Of a stretch of DNA of 64,000 bases, positions 6,818 through 58,418 are shown piece after piece; positions within the stretch are counted from its first letter, which is position 1; every line of letters starts with the position of its first letter. The notes beneath the pieces are model-generated. The model was not told the origin of the DNA. It saw only the letters and a list, made by a program, of their open reading frames with translations, and made no database searches. The DNA comes from Parabacteroides goldsteinii (GTDB lineage: Bacteria > Bacteroidota > Bacteroidia > Bacteroidales > Tannerellaceae). A program made the translations under genes and the position numbers. The stretch covers positions 1-64,000 of the forward strand of contig NZ_JADNBB010000005.1 of assembly GCF_015550595.1 (NCBI RefSeq), in the 5' to 3' direction.

Positions 6818-6961
6818 ACTTTTTATTTTATTAGTTTTGTAGATAGAACAAGCGAGCGGCAGGCTTTGTTTTCCCATCTCCTGTAGATATTAAAAGAACC
6901 ATCATAAGCCCGAAGCGGACTGTTTGGGATGAAAGTTTACCCGGGTGCCGATGTTTTCTTT

Positions 6962-7067
6962 GTTCGACAAAGGTCGAACAGCTGTCCGAGCCGGGTCAGA
7001 CAGCTATCCCACAAGTGTCAGACAGCTATCCTACAAGTGTCAGACAGCTGTCCGACCTTTGTCGAAC
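6962..7067. repeat. Intergenic 22-bp direct repeats inside a 25-bp inverted repeat
   Basis: Two 25-bp arms, 6962-6986 and 7043-7067, are inverted copies of each other with 24/25 identity. Three direct copies of the 15-mer GTCAGACAGCTATCC (the third with one change) start at 6995, 7017 and 7039, an exact 22-bp period, so the last copy overlaps the right arm. The core GACAGCTGTC is itself a palindrome. The block sits in the 470-bp gap between the GlsB-like gene and coaX. No gene in this gap is credible. The role is unknown: an interspersed repeat, a tandem protein-binding site or an RNA hairpin are all possible. Confidence 0.85.
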
Positions 7068-7289
7068 GAATATTTCTCCACGAGGTAGGGAATATTTCTT
7101 CACTGGTTGGTCGGAATAGGATGCGGGAAGTTCGGGTTTTGATCGGGTAGAGTATTTTCGGGATTGTACTCTTTTTTTAGTTTATCTTTATTGAAAAAGG
7201 CGGACTCTCAAAGAAATTTAGCAGGTTATCCTCCGGTTATGCATGTTATTTCGTCAATTTTGTTTTTCTTTGCGGAAAATTTCAGTCAC

Positions 7290-42648: not shown

Positions 42649-44313
42649 TTACTTCGTAGGGTAACCCGGATTTTGTCCTAAGGCAGGGTTCAGATCGAGT
42701 TCAGCCTGTGGAACCGGGAACAAATAGTTATGATCTTCATATTTGCTGCCTGTCAGCTTGATGTTTTCTCCCTGATACAGGATACATACTTTTCCTTCAT
42801 CTTTCGGGTCCGCATTAGCAGGGTCGTCTACCATTTTGTATTTCATCCCCAGGAACGGAGCATTCAAAACCTCTTTGGCAATACCCCAGCGACGGATATC
42901 CCATTTACGCTTGCTGCCTTCCAGTGCGAACTCTACGCGCCACTCGTTACGGATACGCTGGCGAAGGGCATCCTGGGTTCCGCAATAAGTGGGCTTGCTC
43001 GCATCAGAGTTTTGCAGATCCGGCATACCTACGCGGCGGCGTACCTGGTTAACGGCATCGAAAGCGGAAGCGTCCAGTCCTGTAATTTCGTTTTTCGCTT
43101 CAGCATAAGTAAGCAATACTTCTGCATAACGGATTACATGCCAGTCTTTACCCATGTTCCATCCATCCGATTGTGGGTCGATACTCGGGTCGAGCCATTT
43201 CTGTTGATAATATCCGGTAGCTGTTGCGTCATTATGTTGAGCTACACCTGTACTACCGCTCGATTTCAATGGAGCGGTCTTTACTGTTACATTATACATG
43301 GTTTCTCCGTCATGCAATACGCAAACTTCCAGACGCGGGTCGCGATGTTCGAACGGATTCGTTTCGTCATATAAAGAAGATTCGGAAATCGGAGCGCCAT
43401 CGATACATTCGAATGCATCCACCAGGCTCTGTGTCGGGTTAATACCGCCCCATCCCAATGTAGGGAATGCTTCCCAACCAATGATATAACATTCGTCATC
43501 TTTTTTACCAGCTATGTTCTGTCTTACCAGGATTGCTTCCTTGCAAGCTTCCTGTTCTTCCCAGAATAATTTGGCATATTGTCCGGTATTTGCTGCATCA
43601 AACAGTTCATATTCGCCGGAATCCATCACTGCTTTAGCTGCATCGGCGGCTGAGTCGTAATGCTTGAAATAAAGAGCTGCACGTGCTTTCATTGCATTGG
43701 CAGCCCCTTTGGTTGCACGTCCGTAGTCGCCGCTACCCCATTGTGCCGGAAGATGGGCGATAGCATAATCGAAGTCTTCCATTATTTTGGCGTATACTTC
43801 TTCTGCGGGAGTACGTGTTATACTGCCCATATCGTGCAGGTCGAGCGTGCCTTCTACATACGGTACATCTCCAAACGTCTGTATCAAACCAAAATAGATA
43901 TATCCGCGCATAAAGCGGGCTTCTCCTATGGTAGCCTCTTTATCCGCCTGATCATAATCGGGTATCAGGTCGATCTTTTCCAGTAGGATATTACATGAGC
44001 GTATTGCTTTATACTCGTCTGTCCACCCCATATCTCCCGGATCGTAAATGCCTTTTGAAACATTACCTGCGGCCCATTTGATACCGTGTACGGCATTGTC
44101 AGAATCGATATCGCCATCGATGTCACCGGTCCATTTTCCTGGTAGGATTTGTCTGTACACATCGGCAACAAACATTTTGGCATCATTCGGCGTTTTCCAA
44201 TAGCTGCCGTCAGATAGTTCATCCTGCGGTATTCTATCCAGAAAATCACTGCATGAAGTAAAACCCAGAAGGCTTACTGCTGAAATAGCTATATAAATAA
44301 AACTCTTTTTCAT
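42649..44313 (-). CDS. susD: SusD/RagB family nutrient-binding lipoprotein
   Basis: A 554-aa SusD-like protein. It has a lipobox (LLGFTSCSDFLDR), the SusD N-terminal helices (CSDFLDRIPQDELSDGSYWKT), TPR-like packing and the conserved carboxy-terminal end (LDLNPALGQNPGYPTK). It binds oligosaccharide at the cell surface as the lid of the SusC barrel. It follows susC by 23 bp. The substrate is not determined by sequence; a GH2 beta-galactosidase downstream hints at galactosyl glycans. Confidence 0.94.
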   Translation of the reverse strand: MKKSFIYIAISAVSLLGFTSCSDFLDRIPQDELSDGSYWKTPNDAKMFVADVYRQILPGKWTGDIDGDIDSDNAVHGIKWAAGNVSKGIYDPGDMGWTDEYKAIRSCNILLEKIDLIPDYDQADKEATIGEARFMRGYIYFGLIQTFGDVPYVEGTLDLHDMGSITRTPAEEVYAKIMEDFDYAIAHLPAQWGSGDYGRATKGAANAMKARAALYFKHYDSAADAAKAVMDSGEYELFDAANTGQYAKLFWEEQEACKEAILVRQNIAGKKDDECYIIGWEAFPTLGWGGINPTQSLVDAFECIDGAPISESSLYDETNPFEHRDPRLEVCVLHDGETMYNVTVKTAPLKSSGSTGVAQHNDATATGYYQQKWLDPSIDPQSDGWNMGKDWHVIRYAEVLLTYAEAKNEITGLDASAFDAVNQVRRRVGMPDLQNSDASKPTYCGTQDALRQRIRNEWRVEFALEGSKRKWDIRRWGIAKEVLNAPFLGMKYKMVDDPANADPKDEGKVCILYQGENIKLTGSKYEDHNYLFPVPQAELDLNPALGQNPGYPTK

Positions 44314-44336: not shown

Positions 44337-47300
44337 TTAAAATCCAACTTTAAGACCTAATGAAATCTTTCTTACATTTGAGTAAAGACCACCGCGGGAA
44401 TTACTTGGTGCAGATTCAGGGTCGAGGGTATCCATTCCGGTAATCGTAAACAGGTTTTCGCCGGTGATAAATACTTTTACACGTGTCAGGTTGATTTTAC
44501 TCAGCAATGCCTTCGGTACATTGTAACCGAGTGTCAGGTTTTTCAGACGAACATAAGAAGCATCTTCCAGCCAGTATGAAGAGAACTGGTAGTTGATCTG
44601 GTCGGACATCGTAATACGCGGGTAAGAAGCATTGTGGTTGGTCGGAGTCCAACGATCCAGATGGCGTTCCAATACTTTACCACCGTTGAAGAATGCATAA
44701 GCCGCTTCACCATTCACATAAGCATCCACATCGAATGCACCTTGGAAGAATACCGACAGGTCGAAATCTTTGTAATATAAATTGACACCTAAGCCGGCTG
44801 TCCAGCTCGGAAACTCTTTACCGATAACAGTACGGTCGTTAGCCAGGTCGATCTTTCCGTCACCATTCAGGTCTTTGTATTTGATATCACCCAGTTGTTC
44901 TGTTCCGGTACGTTTCGGAAGGCTCTTTAATTCCTCTTCCGTATTGAAATAACCGTCGGCTACATATCCGTAGTAAGAACCGATAGGATGACCTTCCAGG
45001 TACCAGAAGTTATCTCTTCCGTCACCCGGATCCTTACCTTCTGTACCTTTTAAGTCTGTCAGTTCGTTATGTACATACGCCAGATTGAACATGATATCAT
45101 ATTTGAAATCTTTATTTATCACATTATTATGGAAGATACTCAGGTCGAAACCTTTATTCTCCACCTTTCCTGCGTTCTGACGTGGTGCGTCCATACCGAA
45201 GATACCCTGCACGGGCAGGTATAGCAACATGTCGTTAGTAGTCTTCTTGTAAGCAGCCAGTTCAAAACCTAGTCTGTTGTTCAGGAATGAAGCTTCGACA
45301 GCACCTTCCCAGCTGGTAACGGTTGCCCATTTCAGGTTTTTGTTTGCGTAGCGGCTTTCATAAGTTGTAGCATACAGATTATTGCCTAATATGTATTCCT
45401 GATATGCATACGAAGGTATAGTCAGATATACTTCTTCATCTTTAAGTTCTTCGTTACCGGTCTGTCCCCAACCGAGGCGTAACTTCAGGTTGCTCAACCA
45501 GCTGATATCTGCATTCTTCATAAACTCTTCTTCTGTGATTCTCCAACCGGCAGAGAAAGCAGGGAAGGCACCCCAGCGATTGTCGGAAGCAAAACGGGAA
45601 GAACCGTCAATACGAACGTTGGCTTCAAATAGATATTTGTCGGCAAAGCCGTACTGGGCACGGGCAAAGTATGAACGGTGAGCTACTTCGTATCTTTCTT
45701 CCTTGTTCGTTTGTGTAGAGGCATCTAGTGTACTTAATGATTCCTGCAATTCATTATTGCCACCTCCTTTACGTTCGGCTTCCAGTCTTTTATAAGTATG
45801 TTCGATTTGTTCGAAACCTCCCAATAAACCTAAGTCGTGTTTGCCCCAGGTTTCGTTATAGTTTATTAATACCTGCGTAGTGTACCAGTTCCACCAAGTC
45901 TGTTTTTCGTAAGCCTCGCGGAGACCTGTTGTTGCTTCGTTTTTAAGACCGTAATTTACCTGAGCCTTAAATCCTTCTTCACTTCTTTCATCATTACGAA
46001 CAGAGAATAAGGCTTTAGCGGTCAGATTCGGTAGGACATTTACCTGAGCATACACAGTTCCGTTTACCTGTTGGTTCATGTCTCTTCTAAAACCGTCGCG
46101 TCCCAATAATGCAACCGGGTTATCTTTACCGTGGTACAGGAAAGTCCCTTCTTCATTGCGTATGCCTTCTATCGGAGTGGCGCGGTTTGTAAACTGGGTC
46201 ATACCGGAAACACGATTCCAGCTATCCATCAAAGTACCTCTGTAACCGGATAAATTCAAACCGGCAGAGAACCATTTATTGATTTGTGAGTCGATGCTGG
46301 TACGTGCGTTGAAACGTTTGTAGTTGTTTGCATCGATCATACCATTTTGCTGGGTGTAACCGATTGACGCACTATAACTTGTTTTTTCCGAACCACCACT
46401 GATTCCAAGGTGATGCATCGTTTCGATGGCATTCTTATTCATTGTCTCTTTATACCAGTCAGTGTTCGGATGTCCGTAAGGATCCGATCCGTTACGATAC
46501 AATTCGATGTCTTGTTCTGTGAAACGAAGCGGGTTGTTCGGGTTGTCGTTTAATGTAGCTTCATTATATAACATGGCAAAATCGGCAGATCCCAGAAACT
46601 TCGGACGCATAGTAGGTGTAGACCAACCTACGCTACCGGAATAGTTGACACTGGCTTTTTCTCCTTTTTTACCTTTCTTGGTCGTGATCAGGATAACACC
46701 GTTAGCAGCCTGCACACCATAGATGGCAGCTGAAGAGGCATCTTTCAAAACATTCAGGCTTTCGATGTCGGATGGGTCGATCGTGTTCATACTACCCGGT
46801 ACACCGTCTACGATAACCAGCGGACTAGCTGCATTTACAGAGTTTTTGCCACGAATAGTAATGCTACCTGTCTGTTCACCAGGCTTTCCGGTGCTTTGGA
46901 TGGCAGTAACACCCGGCATTTGTCCGGCCAGGGCTGCTGACACACTCGATACTGGGCGGGATTCTATGGCTTCTGCTTTTACAGTAGCAACCGAACCAGT
47001 CAGGTTGGCTTTTTTCTGGACACCGTAACCAACAACTATGACTTCATCGAGAGCCTGTGAATCTTCTGTTAGTGTGATTTTTCCTTTGGCTGCTTCAGAG
47101 GCTTTAATCTCTACGGTTTTAAACCCAATACTACTGATTACCAAGATGTCATTAGGATTGGCCTCCAGTGTGAATTTTCCATCCAGATCGGTCACTGTGC
47201 CGTTGGTTGTTCCTTTAATGACCACATTCGCTCCGATTAGTGGCTCGTTCATTCCACCGTCGAAAACGATTCCGCTTATGGCTTTTTTCTGTTGGGTAAT

Positions 47301-47414
47301 AGATACTTCTGCTGTAGTGGCATACAGGGAAGATGTGGTTACTGAAACAGGAAAAGCAAGTGCGATTAAAAGCAAAGAGAATTGATTTTGCTTTAAAATA
47401 GACCTGTAATTCAT
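44337..47414 (-). CDS. susC: SusC/RagA family TonB-linked outer-membrane transporter
   Basis: A 1025-aa TonB-dependent transporter. It has a signal peptide (about 1-33), a carboxypeptidase-D regulatory-like domain (about 48-130, ISGIVFDGGMNEPLIGANVV), a TonB box region (DEVIVVGYG), the plug (SVSAALAGQMPGVTAIQSTG) and a C-terminal 22-strand barrel ending KISLGLKVGF. There is no STN domain, so it is not of the signal-transducing type. It imports the glycan captured by the SusD partner. Its 5' region contains the invertible-promoter candidate (47452-47694); the ATG at 47414 lies 38 bp from the nearer inverted repeat. Confidence 0.95.
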   Translation of the reverse strand: MNYRSILKQNQFSLLLIALAFPVSVTTSSLYATTAEVSITQQKKAISGIVFDGGMNEPLIGANVVIKGTTNGTVTDLDGKFTLEANPNDILVISSIGFKTVEIKASEAAKGKITLTEDSQALDEVIVVGYGVQKKANLTGSVATVKAEAIESRPVSSVSAALAGQMPGVTAIQSTGKPGEQTGSITIRGKNSVNAASPLVIVDGVPGSMNTIDPSDIESLNVLKDASSAAIYGVQAANGVILITTKKGKKGEKASVNYSGSVGWSTPTMRPKFLGSADFAMLYNEATLNDNPNNPLRFTEQDIELYRNGSDPYGHPNTDWYKETMNKNAIETMHHLGISGGSEKTSYSASIGYTQQNGMIDANNYKRFNARTSIDSQINKWFSAGLNLSGYRGTLMDSWNRVSGMTQFTNRATPIEGIRNEEGTFLYHGKDNPVALLGRDGFRRDMNQQVNGTVYAQVNVLPNLTAKALFSVRNDERSEEGFKAQVNYGLKNEATTGLREAYEKQTWWNWYTTQVLINYNETWGKHDLGLLGGFEQIEHTYKRLEAERKGGGNNELQESLSTLDASTQTNKEERYEVAHRSYFARAQYGFADKYLFEANVRIDGSSRFASDNRWGAFPAFSAGWRITEEEFMKNADISWLSNLKLRLGWGQTGNEELKDEEVYLTIPSYAYQEYILGNNLYATTYESRYANKNLKWATVTSWEGAVEASFLNNRLGFELAAYKKTTNDMLLYLPVQGIFGMDAPRQNAGKVENKGFDLSIFHNNVINKDFKYDIMFNLAYVHNELTDLKGTEGKDPGDGRDNFWYLEGHPIGSYYGYVADGYFNTEEELKSLPKRTGTEQLGDIKYKDLNGDGKIDLANDRTVIGKEFPSWTAGLGVNLYYKDFDLSVFFQGAFDVDAYVNGEAAYAFFNGGKVLERHLDRWTPTNHNASYPRITMSDQINYQFSSYWLEDASYVRLKNLTLGYNVPKALLSKINLTRVKVFITGENLFTITGMDTLDPESAPSNSRGGLYSNVRKISLGLKVGF

Positions 47415-47451: not shown

Positions 47452-47472
47452 TAACATAGTCCTAGCAGAACT
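47452..47472 (+). repeat. Left arm of the 21-bp inverted repeat
   Basis: Pairs with 47674-47694 as an inverted copy (19 of 21 positions), exact for 11 bp next to the spacer. Confidence 0.85.
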
Positions 47473-47576
47473 CAGGCTTAATCATAATTAGTAATCGTCA
47501 GTACCTTAATGCGTTAATTGGGATTGGTTAAGAATACAAGAAAATGAATTAACTTTATCAAGTAATTAATAATTAA

Positions 47577-47584
47577 CAAATGTA
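47577..47584 (-). promoter_or_regulatory. Minus-facing -7 motif inside the element
   Basis: TACATTTG on the minus strand matches TAnnTTTG. In the present orientation it would be the only candidate inside the element that drives susC, with a leader of about 155 nt; a -33 TTTG is absent. Confidence 0.4.
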
Positions 47585-47648
47585 GCTGTACGGGTTGTGT
47601 TTAGTTATGTATTTTAATATATTTATGCATTGATAATAAAAAATATAC

Positions 47649-47656
47649 TATATTTG
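47649..47656 (+). promoter_or_regulatory. Plus-facing -7 motif inside the element
   Basis: TATATTTG matches TAnnTTTG, with an AT-rich upstream region and a TTG at 47630-47632 (spacing somewhat short for a -33 box). It presently points away from susC, towards the serine hydrolase. Confidence 0.5.
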
Positions 47657-47673
47657 CAGTGTCGTTTTTAAAT

Positions 47674-47694
47674 AGTTCTGCTAGAACGATGTTA
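47674..47694 (-). repeat. Right arm of the 21-bp inverted repeat
   Basis: Inverted copy of 47452-47472. This arm contains an internal dyad (GTTCT, 3-nt centre, AGAAC), as is common at recombinase core sites. Confidence 0.85.
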
Positions 47695-47788
47695 TCCCTG
47701 CTTTCTCCCTCCTTTAATAAATTCTTCAATTTATTTCTACCCTATAGATTACTTTGGTGAAAATGGATAAATTATCATTTTGTTTTCT

Positions 47789-47796
47789 TAGATTTG
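47789..47796 (+). promoter_or_regulatory. -7 promoter motif of the serine hydrolase
   Basis: TAGATTTG matches TAnnTTTG. The expected start of transcription near 47803 favours the ATG at 47823 over the frame start at 47754. Confidence 0.55.
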
Positions 47797-47822
47797 TCGG
47801 ATATAATATAATCCAATTGTAT

Positions 47823-48794
47823 ATGCGATGTGAATCTTACCGAATATTGATATCGTTTTGTTTGTTGTTTTGGGGATTGTTTATTTCTGCCCAGATGCCC
47901 GTCCGGTTAAATGAACGTCCAATTAGCCTGAGTACTTCATCGGGAAAGATCAATGGAAAGATGATAATTCCGGGAACGGCAACTTTTCCGTTGGTTTTGA
48001 TTATTGCAGGTTCAGGACCAACCGATATGGATGGTAATTCGGCTGTGGCTGGTATGAAGAATAATTCGTTGAAATACCTGGCTGAAGAGTTGGGTAGGAG
48101 AGGTATTGGCTCCCTGCGTTTTGATAAACGAGGTATTGCATCCAGCGCAGGTGCCGGGAAAGATGAGTATTCCATGCGTTTTGAAGACGGTATAAAAGAT
48201 GTACGCGAATGGATTGATCTTTTATCCCGCGATCGTCGTTTGAATGGTATCTATATAGCCGGTCATAGTGAGGGAGCGCTCGTAGGGATGCTTGCCAGCC
48301 AGGATAATCCGAAGGTGAAAGGATATATTTCGCTGGCAGGAGCGGGGCGGCCTATGTCGGATCTGCTGGAAGAGCAGATGGCTGGGCAACCTGAAGTGAT
48401 ACGGAAAATGGTGATATCTATCAACGACTCCCTGAAAGCAGGTAAGCTGGTTCCGAGTGTGCCGCTGGGATTGCAGGCTTTATTTCGTTCTTCTGTTCAG
48501 CCATATCTGATCTCTTGCTATAAATACGATCCGCAGAAAGAGATAAAGAAACTGACTGTTCCTGTCCTGTTGTTACAGGGAAAAACAGATATACAGGTCT
48601 CTGTAAAAGATGCAGAATTATTAAAACAAGCATTACCTTCTGCCGAAATTAATTTGATAGATGGTATGAACCATGTATTAAAGGATTGTGCAACGACAGA
48701 CCGTCAGGCTCAGATGGCTGTTTACAACGATCCTGACCTTCCTGTCAATGAGAACTTGCTCTTATTCATTGAAAAGTTTGTGAAGAAGCCCTGA
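47823..48794 (+). CDS. Secreted alpha/beta serine hydrolase
   Basis: A 323-aa exported protein (signal peptide about 1-24, LLFWGLFISAQ) with the alpha/beta hydrolase fold: the oxyanion region IIAGSGPTDMDGN, the nucleophile elbow GHSEG (AGHSEGALVGMLAS), and a late Asp (LQGKTDIQV) and His (GMNHVLKD). It is an esterase or peptidase of unknown substrate. The start is set at 47823 because it begins the signal peptide and lies 27 bp after the promoter. Confidence 0.85.
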   Translation: MRCESYRILISFCLLFWGLFISAQMPVRLNERPISLSTSSGKINGKMIIPGTATFPLVLIIAGSGPTDMDGNSAVAGMKNNSLKYLAEELGRRGIGSLRFDKRGIASSAGAGKDEYSMRFEDGIKDVREWIDLLSRDRRLNGIYIAGHSEGALVGMLASQDNPKVKGYISLAGAGRPMSDLLEEQMAGQPEVIRKMVISINDSLKAGKLVPSVPLGLQALFRSSVQPYLISCYKYDPQKEIKKLTVPVLLLQGKTDIQVSVKDAELLKQALPSAEINLIDGMNHVLKDCATTDRQAQMAVYNDPDLPVNENLLLFIEKFVKKP

Positions 48795-57991: not shown

Positions 57992-58418
57992 GTTACTTTT
58001 CTCTTGACAGAAAAGTAACCAAAAGTTCAAGGCTGCACCTGCTTCGCTGCTCCGGTGAAAGACTACGCTGTCGTCTGCGAACTCGCTTCGCTCAAACAGC
58101 GCAGTCTCCTTACGCTTCGTCTTTCCCCTTCGCGGACGCTCACCCGCCGAAGGCCTTTCAGAGAACGCAAAGCGTTCTTTGGGGATTGCCGATACCGACA
58201 CCTTTAAAACAGGCGCTATCGGCCATCCTAAGAGGAAGCTCCGCTTCCTATGAAAGGCCTCAGCTGGCGAGCGTAAAGCGCAGCAGCCGTAGAGAGCGCC
58301 CGGAGCATCCGCTGTTTGAGCGAAGCGAGTTCGGAGGCGATAGCGAACGCAGGATGCGGAGTAGCGAACCAGGTGCAGCCTTGATCTTTTGACTACTTTT
58401 GGATCAAGCCAAAAGTAG
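57992..58418. repeat. Large palindromic intergenic element
   Basis: A segment of about 430 bp between two convergent genes that is a long imperfect inverted repeat centred near 58205. Each end is a hairpin with a 6-nt loop: 57992-58002 with 58009-58019 (11 bp), and 58393-58402 with 58409-58418 (10 bp). Matching arms follow inside, including an AACTCGCTTCGCTCAAACAGCG block that recurs in reverse on the right, and small paired hairpins near the centre. No transposase and no credible gene is present. It may be a mobile-type repeat (MITE-like) or a structured RNA acting as terminator for both neighbours. Confidence 0.75.

Follow-up and report, generated by a model that had tools for sequence, protein, structure and literature searches.

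A probable SusC/SusD-type invertible promoter in Parabacteroides goldsteinii and the family of sites to which it appears to belong

Genes and repeats at the locus

The window (the whole stretch of DNA analyzed here, 64,000 nucleotides from Parabacteroides goldsteinii) contains a susC/susD-like gene pair and, upstream of it, a segment enclosed by inverted repeats (Table 1). An earlier note on this sequence described 21-bp repeats identical at 19 of the 21 positions and a segment devoid of genes between them, and both descriptions hold; a 42-aa open reading frame (ORF) overlaps the right end of the segment. The sites contained in the two arms start 216 bp apart, with the left site 44 bp, and the left arm 37 bp, from the susC start. 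On the opposite side, the hydrolase ORF starts 74 bp past the right site, on the same strand as the TATATTTG box, and is followed by a gene for an ABC-F-like protein that probably has its own promoter.

Table 1. Features of the locus, with coordinates in the window
Feature	Position	Strand	Remarks
susD-like lipoprotein	42649..44313	-	second gene of the probable target operon; follows the susC-like gene
susC-like TonB-dependent receptor	44337..47414	-	probable target; start at 47414
Left inverted-repeat arm	47452..47472	+	contains the 15-bp site AGTCC-TAGCA-GAACT at 47458-47472
Central N5 (TAGCA) of the left site	47463..47467	+	right-arm counterpart at 47679-47683; probable strand-exchange (overlap) region, putative role
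Predicted invertible segment	47473..47673		201 bp, without gene; longest ORF entirely within, 21 aa
TACATTTG box	47577..47584	-	directed toward susC; 104 bp from the left arm, unlike the usual family position; not conserved in G022
TATATTTG, Bacteroidales -7 box	47649..47656	+	17 bp from the right arm; toward the hydrolase gene as assembled, toward susC if inverted
Right inverted-repeat arm	47674..47694	-	contains the 15-bp site CGTTC-TAGCA-GAACT (minus strand) at 47674-47688
Alpha/beta hydrolase	47763..48794	+	343 aa when counted from the first ATG; a TTG at 47754 is a possible start; faced by the promoter box as assembled

A 19/21 inverted repeat within 1 kb was obtained in none of 60 dinucleotide shuffles of the window. 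The repeat ranks fifth of the 23 inverted repeats listed for the window, which include longer ones, and therefore the repeat alone is not unique. Among the other structures in the window, a long imperfect hairpin at 57994-58417 consists of three nested inverted repeats (arms of 61, 51 and 47 nt, 74-84% complementary), is overlapped by short mechanical ORFs only and looks like a repeated intergenic element, and a hairpin at 6959-7070, upstream of an ORF at 7164, has 55-nt arms made of repeated CAGACAGCT-like words.

The earlier note further proposed a search for the 11-bp core of the repeat, AGTTCTGCTAG, elsewhere in the genome; this search yields exactly two matches in 6,526,473 bases (6.53 Mb), both of which are the window arms, because the center of the core is locus-specific. 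An exact 21-mer search of genome contigs and a plasmid search, both of which may omit records of the window itself or of very close sequences, gave no match.

A family of paired sites and its evolution

The common element of the arms is a 15-bp dyad site, AGTTC-N5-GAACT, from which each arm of the window locus departs once (Table 1); the departure of the right arm affects its first base and counts against the main explanation developed below. In the genome to which the window belongs (G000), AGTTCTNNNNGAACT has 31+30 exact matches compared to 1+0 for the reversed pattern; the corresponding numbers are 30+32 compared to 2+1 in the related genome G022 and 35+36 compared to 1+0 in the related genome G019. 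In all these counts, a site with A before GAACT scores on both strands. G000 contains at least 28 inverted site pairs (33 loci), 142-1182 bp apart, 27 of them within 142-592 bp, and 25 different centers are found among the 28; 19 such pairs were identified in 21 loci of G022 and 21 in 21 loci of G019. All these pairs were accepted on identical N5 in both arms, and the loci were chosen for containing a site, so that the pair counts represent a non-random sample of each genome. The G000 set also excludes pairs whose half-sites together show more than three mismatches, whereby at least two (C7:27023/27452 and C44:31362/31510) were dropped. When pairs from the three genomes are selected by half-sites only (no more than one half-site mismatch in total, separation of 100-1300 bp, center ignored), identical N5 is seen in 61 of the 69 and a single N5 mismatch in none; the centers of the remaining eight are clearly unlike, which is another count against the main explanation. 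Over 68 pairs, the arm-to-arm identity is 84-100% within the 15-bp core, where center identity was a selection criterion, and 15-59% in the 40 positions on each side, a fall that was not selected for; the shared unit is therefore the 15-bp core rather than a longer repeat. At two other loci of G000, L087 and L108, susC genes are present on both sides of the segment. The L087 locus contains three sites (C85:54277, 54699 and 62052) with the common center TAAAA beside divergent susC genes and is probably a susC shufflon.

Comparison of the related genomes points to recombination at these sites. At the window locus, the two arms share the center TAGCA in G000 as well as in G022, and in G019 both have TAGTA; in G004, the left arm has TGGTA, and the contig stops before any right arm. 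The same change in both arms is expected if strands are exchanged across the center, and the joint change from TAGCA to TAGTA can be read as a mark of recombination at this locus. A different N5, again alike in the two arms, is found in 3 of 14 orthologous pairs for G000/G022, 5 of 15 for G000/G019 and 5 of 14 for G022/G019, with a few orthologies, including that of the window locus with G019, based on one flank.

Two sister loci appear in reversed orientation in different genomes. At C17:33236/33828, the inside is reversed relative to both flanks in G022 (flanks 97% and 95%, inside 90% over 578 bp) and is reversed in G019 as well, and at C20:47504/47713 it is reversed in G019 compared to G000 (flanks 91% and 81%, inside 86% over 121 bp). 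Most of the comparable loci are unflipped, which again counts against the main explanation: the orientation is the same for 12 of 14 loci between G000 and G022 (two flipped, one of these a tie and unused), for 11 of 15 between G000 and G019 (two flipped, two unmatched) and for 12 of 14 between G022 and G019 (one a tie; two unmatched). The inner scores are tied for L112/L137, scored as a flip, and for L137/L163, scored as the same orientation, and neither was used. An apparent flip at C85:54277 (L087) turned out to be unflipped with better-matching flanks. The window locus has the same orientation in G000 and G022, a further count against the main explanation, with identical arms and an inside that differs by 12%. 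Its match to G019 is a weak one in the same direction (62 bp, 77%), the right flank in G019 being interrupted; aligned in either direction, the G019 segment scores above 300 shuffles both ways, and best as is. In G019 (L023, 7173-8473), an insertion that encompasses an ORF for an rve-type (integrase core) transposase and a second small ORF lies between the right arm and the hydrolase gene.

The segments of this family share a characteristic position of the predicted promoter. The accessible text of PMC4747536 gives TAnnTTTG as the Bacteroides -7 consensus, and 45 of the 68 segments contain an outward box of this form at a distance of 10-30 bp from an arm, compared to 2.69 on average and at most 8 for shuffled insides; 35 of the boxes are located 15-19 bp from the arm, and one segment of the 68 has outward boxes at both ends. 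The 23 segments without a box at the usual place were counted against the main explanation. The motifs TATATTTG and TACATTTG lie within the segment and face as the earlier note described, and inversion would indeed bring TATATTTG to 47490-47497 on the minus strand, with a leader to susC of about 70 nt. Both TATATTTG and the right arm belong to a 70-base block (47628-47697) that is identical in G022. Given that TATATTTG is at the usual family distance and points away from susC, the assembled state is probably susC-OFF, an orientation that the earlier note had suggested and that is favored by the position of this box together with its conservation in G022. The minus-facing motif was also said to leave the orientation open; TACATTTG is present and faces susC, but it is misplaced and lost in G022, the nearest relative, and the choice leans clearly to TATATTTG. 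By these sequence comparisons, TACATTTG probably is not the promoter, whereas TATATTTG most likely is; in the assembled state it would read toward the hydrolase gene, and susC would be off. Where a segment has susC on one side and a single such box, this box points away from susC in 7 of 9 cases in G000, 4 of 4 in G022 and 3 of 5 in G019. In the window-locus segment of G019, a box 17 bp from the left arm faces susC and the one at the right end is decayed, an arrangement counted against the main explanation.

Candidate recombinases

The recombinase gene for which the earlier note suggested a search has a candidate on the same contig, 71 kb away from the segment, namely a gene for a 387-aa tyrosine recombinase (C55:118890-120053) located directly after two susC/susD-like pairs. 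The protein contains the Arm-DNA-bind_5, Phage_int_SAM_5 and Phage_integrase domains, and residues R271, K298, H360, R363, H386 and Y395, which we take to be the catalytic set of tyrosine recombinases, are conserved in seven aligned sequences. There are 48 matches to PF00589 in G000. The recombinases compared come from 45 stretches for these 48 matches, 26 stretches for part of the 45 matches in G012, 18 of 26 in G021, and all those of G070 (3), G113 (3), G111 (6), G010 (9) and G009 (9), with none from G022 and G019. Relatives of the C55 protein are present in all five other site-bearing genomes of this comparison (76% in G012, 74% in G021, 62% in G111, 60% in G113 and, over 296 aa, 51% in G070). 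In G113, which is 70% complete, the tyrosine recombinases found are this relative, XerD (above the NCBIfam cut-off) and an XerC-like protein (best match XerC, below the cut-off). As for the site-poor genomes, G010 shows no reciprocal best match to the C55 protein, and G009 has a shorter, 309-aa form. Sites are also abundant in further genomes such as G064, G074 and G067. In a scan of named genomes that depends on exact peptide patterns, the closest relatives come from Parabacteroides gordonii (93%) and P. faecis (92%), others from Bacteroides and Phocaeicola (about 45-55%), and B. fragilis yields a 25% match only.

Six of 45 close relatives are encoded inside an inverted, identical-center site pair within 3.1 kb, and a seventh (L292) within 9.2 kb. 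In the six, the sites are located at about residue 75-92 (window SusC numbering) of the susC-like genes on either side, an arrangement that we interpret as a susC shufflon with its enzyme gene included. The other 38, those of P. gordonii and P. faecis among them, have no flanking site pair, and none was found near the C55 gene itself in G000, both of which count against the main explanation; no site pair accompanies any of 35 distant relatives of the protein. By its distribution and its relatives, the C55 recombinase is likely to be the invertase of the AGTTC-N5-GAACT sites.

Several other recombinases were considered. The L083 (C41) protein was rejected as the master invertase since it is patchy, has many close copies and does not follow the sites in its distribution. 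Six recombinases of 305-332 aa (L096, L097, L099-L101 and L103) were set aside as another class, each having its own local CCTTATT...AATAAGG repeats, and L102 has a different local repeat of its own. In the six, the inverted repeat lies just past the 3' end of the gene, with arm starts 345-512 bp apart, and they appear to constitute a second, local class of invertases. A 460-aa recombinase frame in L086 (C50, 4080-6002) starts about 310 bp from a site pair with the center TAATA. None of ten non-Xer recombinases scored above an NCBIfam cut-off.

Interpretation and comparison with known systems

The phase-variable invertible promoter for susC/susD that the earlier note envisaged is supported by the site family, the co-variation of the arms at this locus, the two flipped sister loci, the position of the promoter and the candidate invertase. 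With a probability of roughly 0.87, the stretch 47452-47694 constitutes a SusC/SusD-type (Tsr0667) invertible promoter that is flipped by a recombinase encoded elsewhere, most likely the C55 protein. This tyrosine recombinase would bind both half-site dyads of the AGTTC-N5-GAACT type, and strand exchange across the five matching central bases would flip the 201 bp between the sites. In the assembled state, the TATATTTG promoter would point out of the right arm, away from susC, whereas in the inverted state it would be directed toward susC, and susC-susD would be transcribed with the leader given above. We infer the flipping of this locus in living cells, the function of the promoter and the identity of the enzyme.

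The orientation of TATATTTG could also mean that the element is a two-way switch between two operons, with the hydrolase gene transcribed in the assembled state and susC-susD in the inverted one. The box faces a nearby same-strand ORF, in a layout kept in G022, and L087 and L108 have susC on both sides; however, the insertion in G019 parts the right arm from the hydrolase gene, the gene that follows is probably transcribed independently, and, of the 14 G000 segments flanked by susC on a single side, 9 have as their nearest opposite neighbor an ORF that does not read away from the segment, all of which makes this version doubtful. It is decidedly improbable that the arms and promoter are what is left of an inverton whose flipping has ceased in this lineage, as might be suggested by the unchanged orientation in G000 and G022 and by the departure of each arm from the perfect dyad: the arms remain identical in these two genomes although the inside has diverged, the N5 of both arms has changed since the divergence from G019, and the candidate invertase is present, complete in its domains and catalytic residues. 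Either arm is a dyad in its own right and would sit near a transcript 5' end, as a regulator-binding site or an attenuator/terminator hairpin might; yet the pairs are inverted with identical variable centers and two sister segments are reversed at these very sites, so that a non-recombining element of this sort is hardly credible.

An inverton of the same nature might, alternatively, be served by another of the many recombinases of this genome, for example, the 460-aa protein beside the C50:16268 site pair, the only frame in the fetched recombinase stretches that starts so close to such a pair. The abundance of PF00589 matches and the lack of sites near the C55 gene agree with this assignment, whereas the C55 relative in site-bearing G113, found there as the only tyrosine recombinase besides the XerD and XerC-like proteins, the seven of 45 relatives that are located between paired sites of the AGTTC-N5-GAACT kind and the fetched G022 and G019 loci, where no recombinase was found by the sister pairs, speak against it; we consider a different enzyme unlikely.

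The five central bases can be assigned a tentative role. Other tyrosine recombinases require identity of the overlap. Here, the two centers of a locus agree and drift together, and centers vary from one locus to another, which suggests that matching centers are required; in the accessible parts of the literature searched, no statement was found that Bacteroidales sites need them. We see about even odds that one unlinked invertase serves some thirty switches, with the central bases as an address that is matched within a switch, usually differs between switches and drifts in concert via strand exchange. No selection for distinct addresses is detectable: three locus pairs share an address in each of the three genomes, compared to column-shuffled means of 6.35, 3.32 and 2.54 (P of as few or fewer, 0.105, 0.597 and 0.759). 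Shared addresses being no rarer than chance, avoidance of cross-talk has no support. Should the address reading be true, one enzyme would flip many promoters while large between-locus rearrangements stay rare, and the address would be a readable record of the switches flipped in evolution. The matching, drifting centers offer a read-free way to tell from assemblies which switches recombined since the species split, the promoter position gives a likely ON/OFF reading for many of the switches, and removal of the candidate master invertase might lock about thirty of them at once. The window switch very probably is one of about thirty in this genome, turning a nutrient-uptake system on and off.

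For the sites of B. fragilis Tsr0667, the consensus AGTYYYN4GDACT is said to have been given by Nakayama-Imaohji et al. in 2009; the left arm, AGTCCTAGCAGAACT, fits this pattern, and the right arm, CGTTCTAGCAGAACT, departs from it at the first base. The accessible parts of the respective publications describe Tsr0667 as responsible for shufflon inversion at three SusC/SusD clusters and nine other regions (PMC4747536, PMC11852207). The SusC/SusD inverton kind is already known from Bacteroides. The system described here resembles that of Tsr0667 in the inverted sites a few hundred base pairs apart immediately upstream of susC/susD, in the many distant loci of one genome that have a common site, a probable susC shufflon among them, and in the outward Bacteroidales box within the segment (TATATTTG, the predicted promoter). 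For the role of the global tyrosine recombinase, the C55 protein, with arm-binding, SAM-like and catalytic domains, is a candidate. It differs in belonging to another genus and in comprising at least 28 pairs compared to the 12 regions named for B. fragilis. Among known systems, inverton group 131 from the hCom2 survey is also likely to be close, as far as the accessible text of PMC11892184 goes. Capsule-locus invertons are invertible promoters of similar size with a recombinase nearby, and, unlike the locus-specific centers found here, they share an identical 20-bp repeat at several loci, according to the accessible text of PMC12118408. By sites and layout, the window element is most simply viewed as a Parabacteroides-type member of the Tsr0667 SusC/SusD inverton kind, which would extend the SusC/SusD switch regulon of B. 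fragilis to Parabacteroides.
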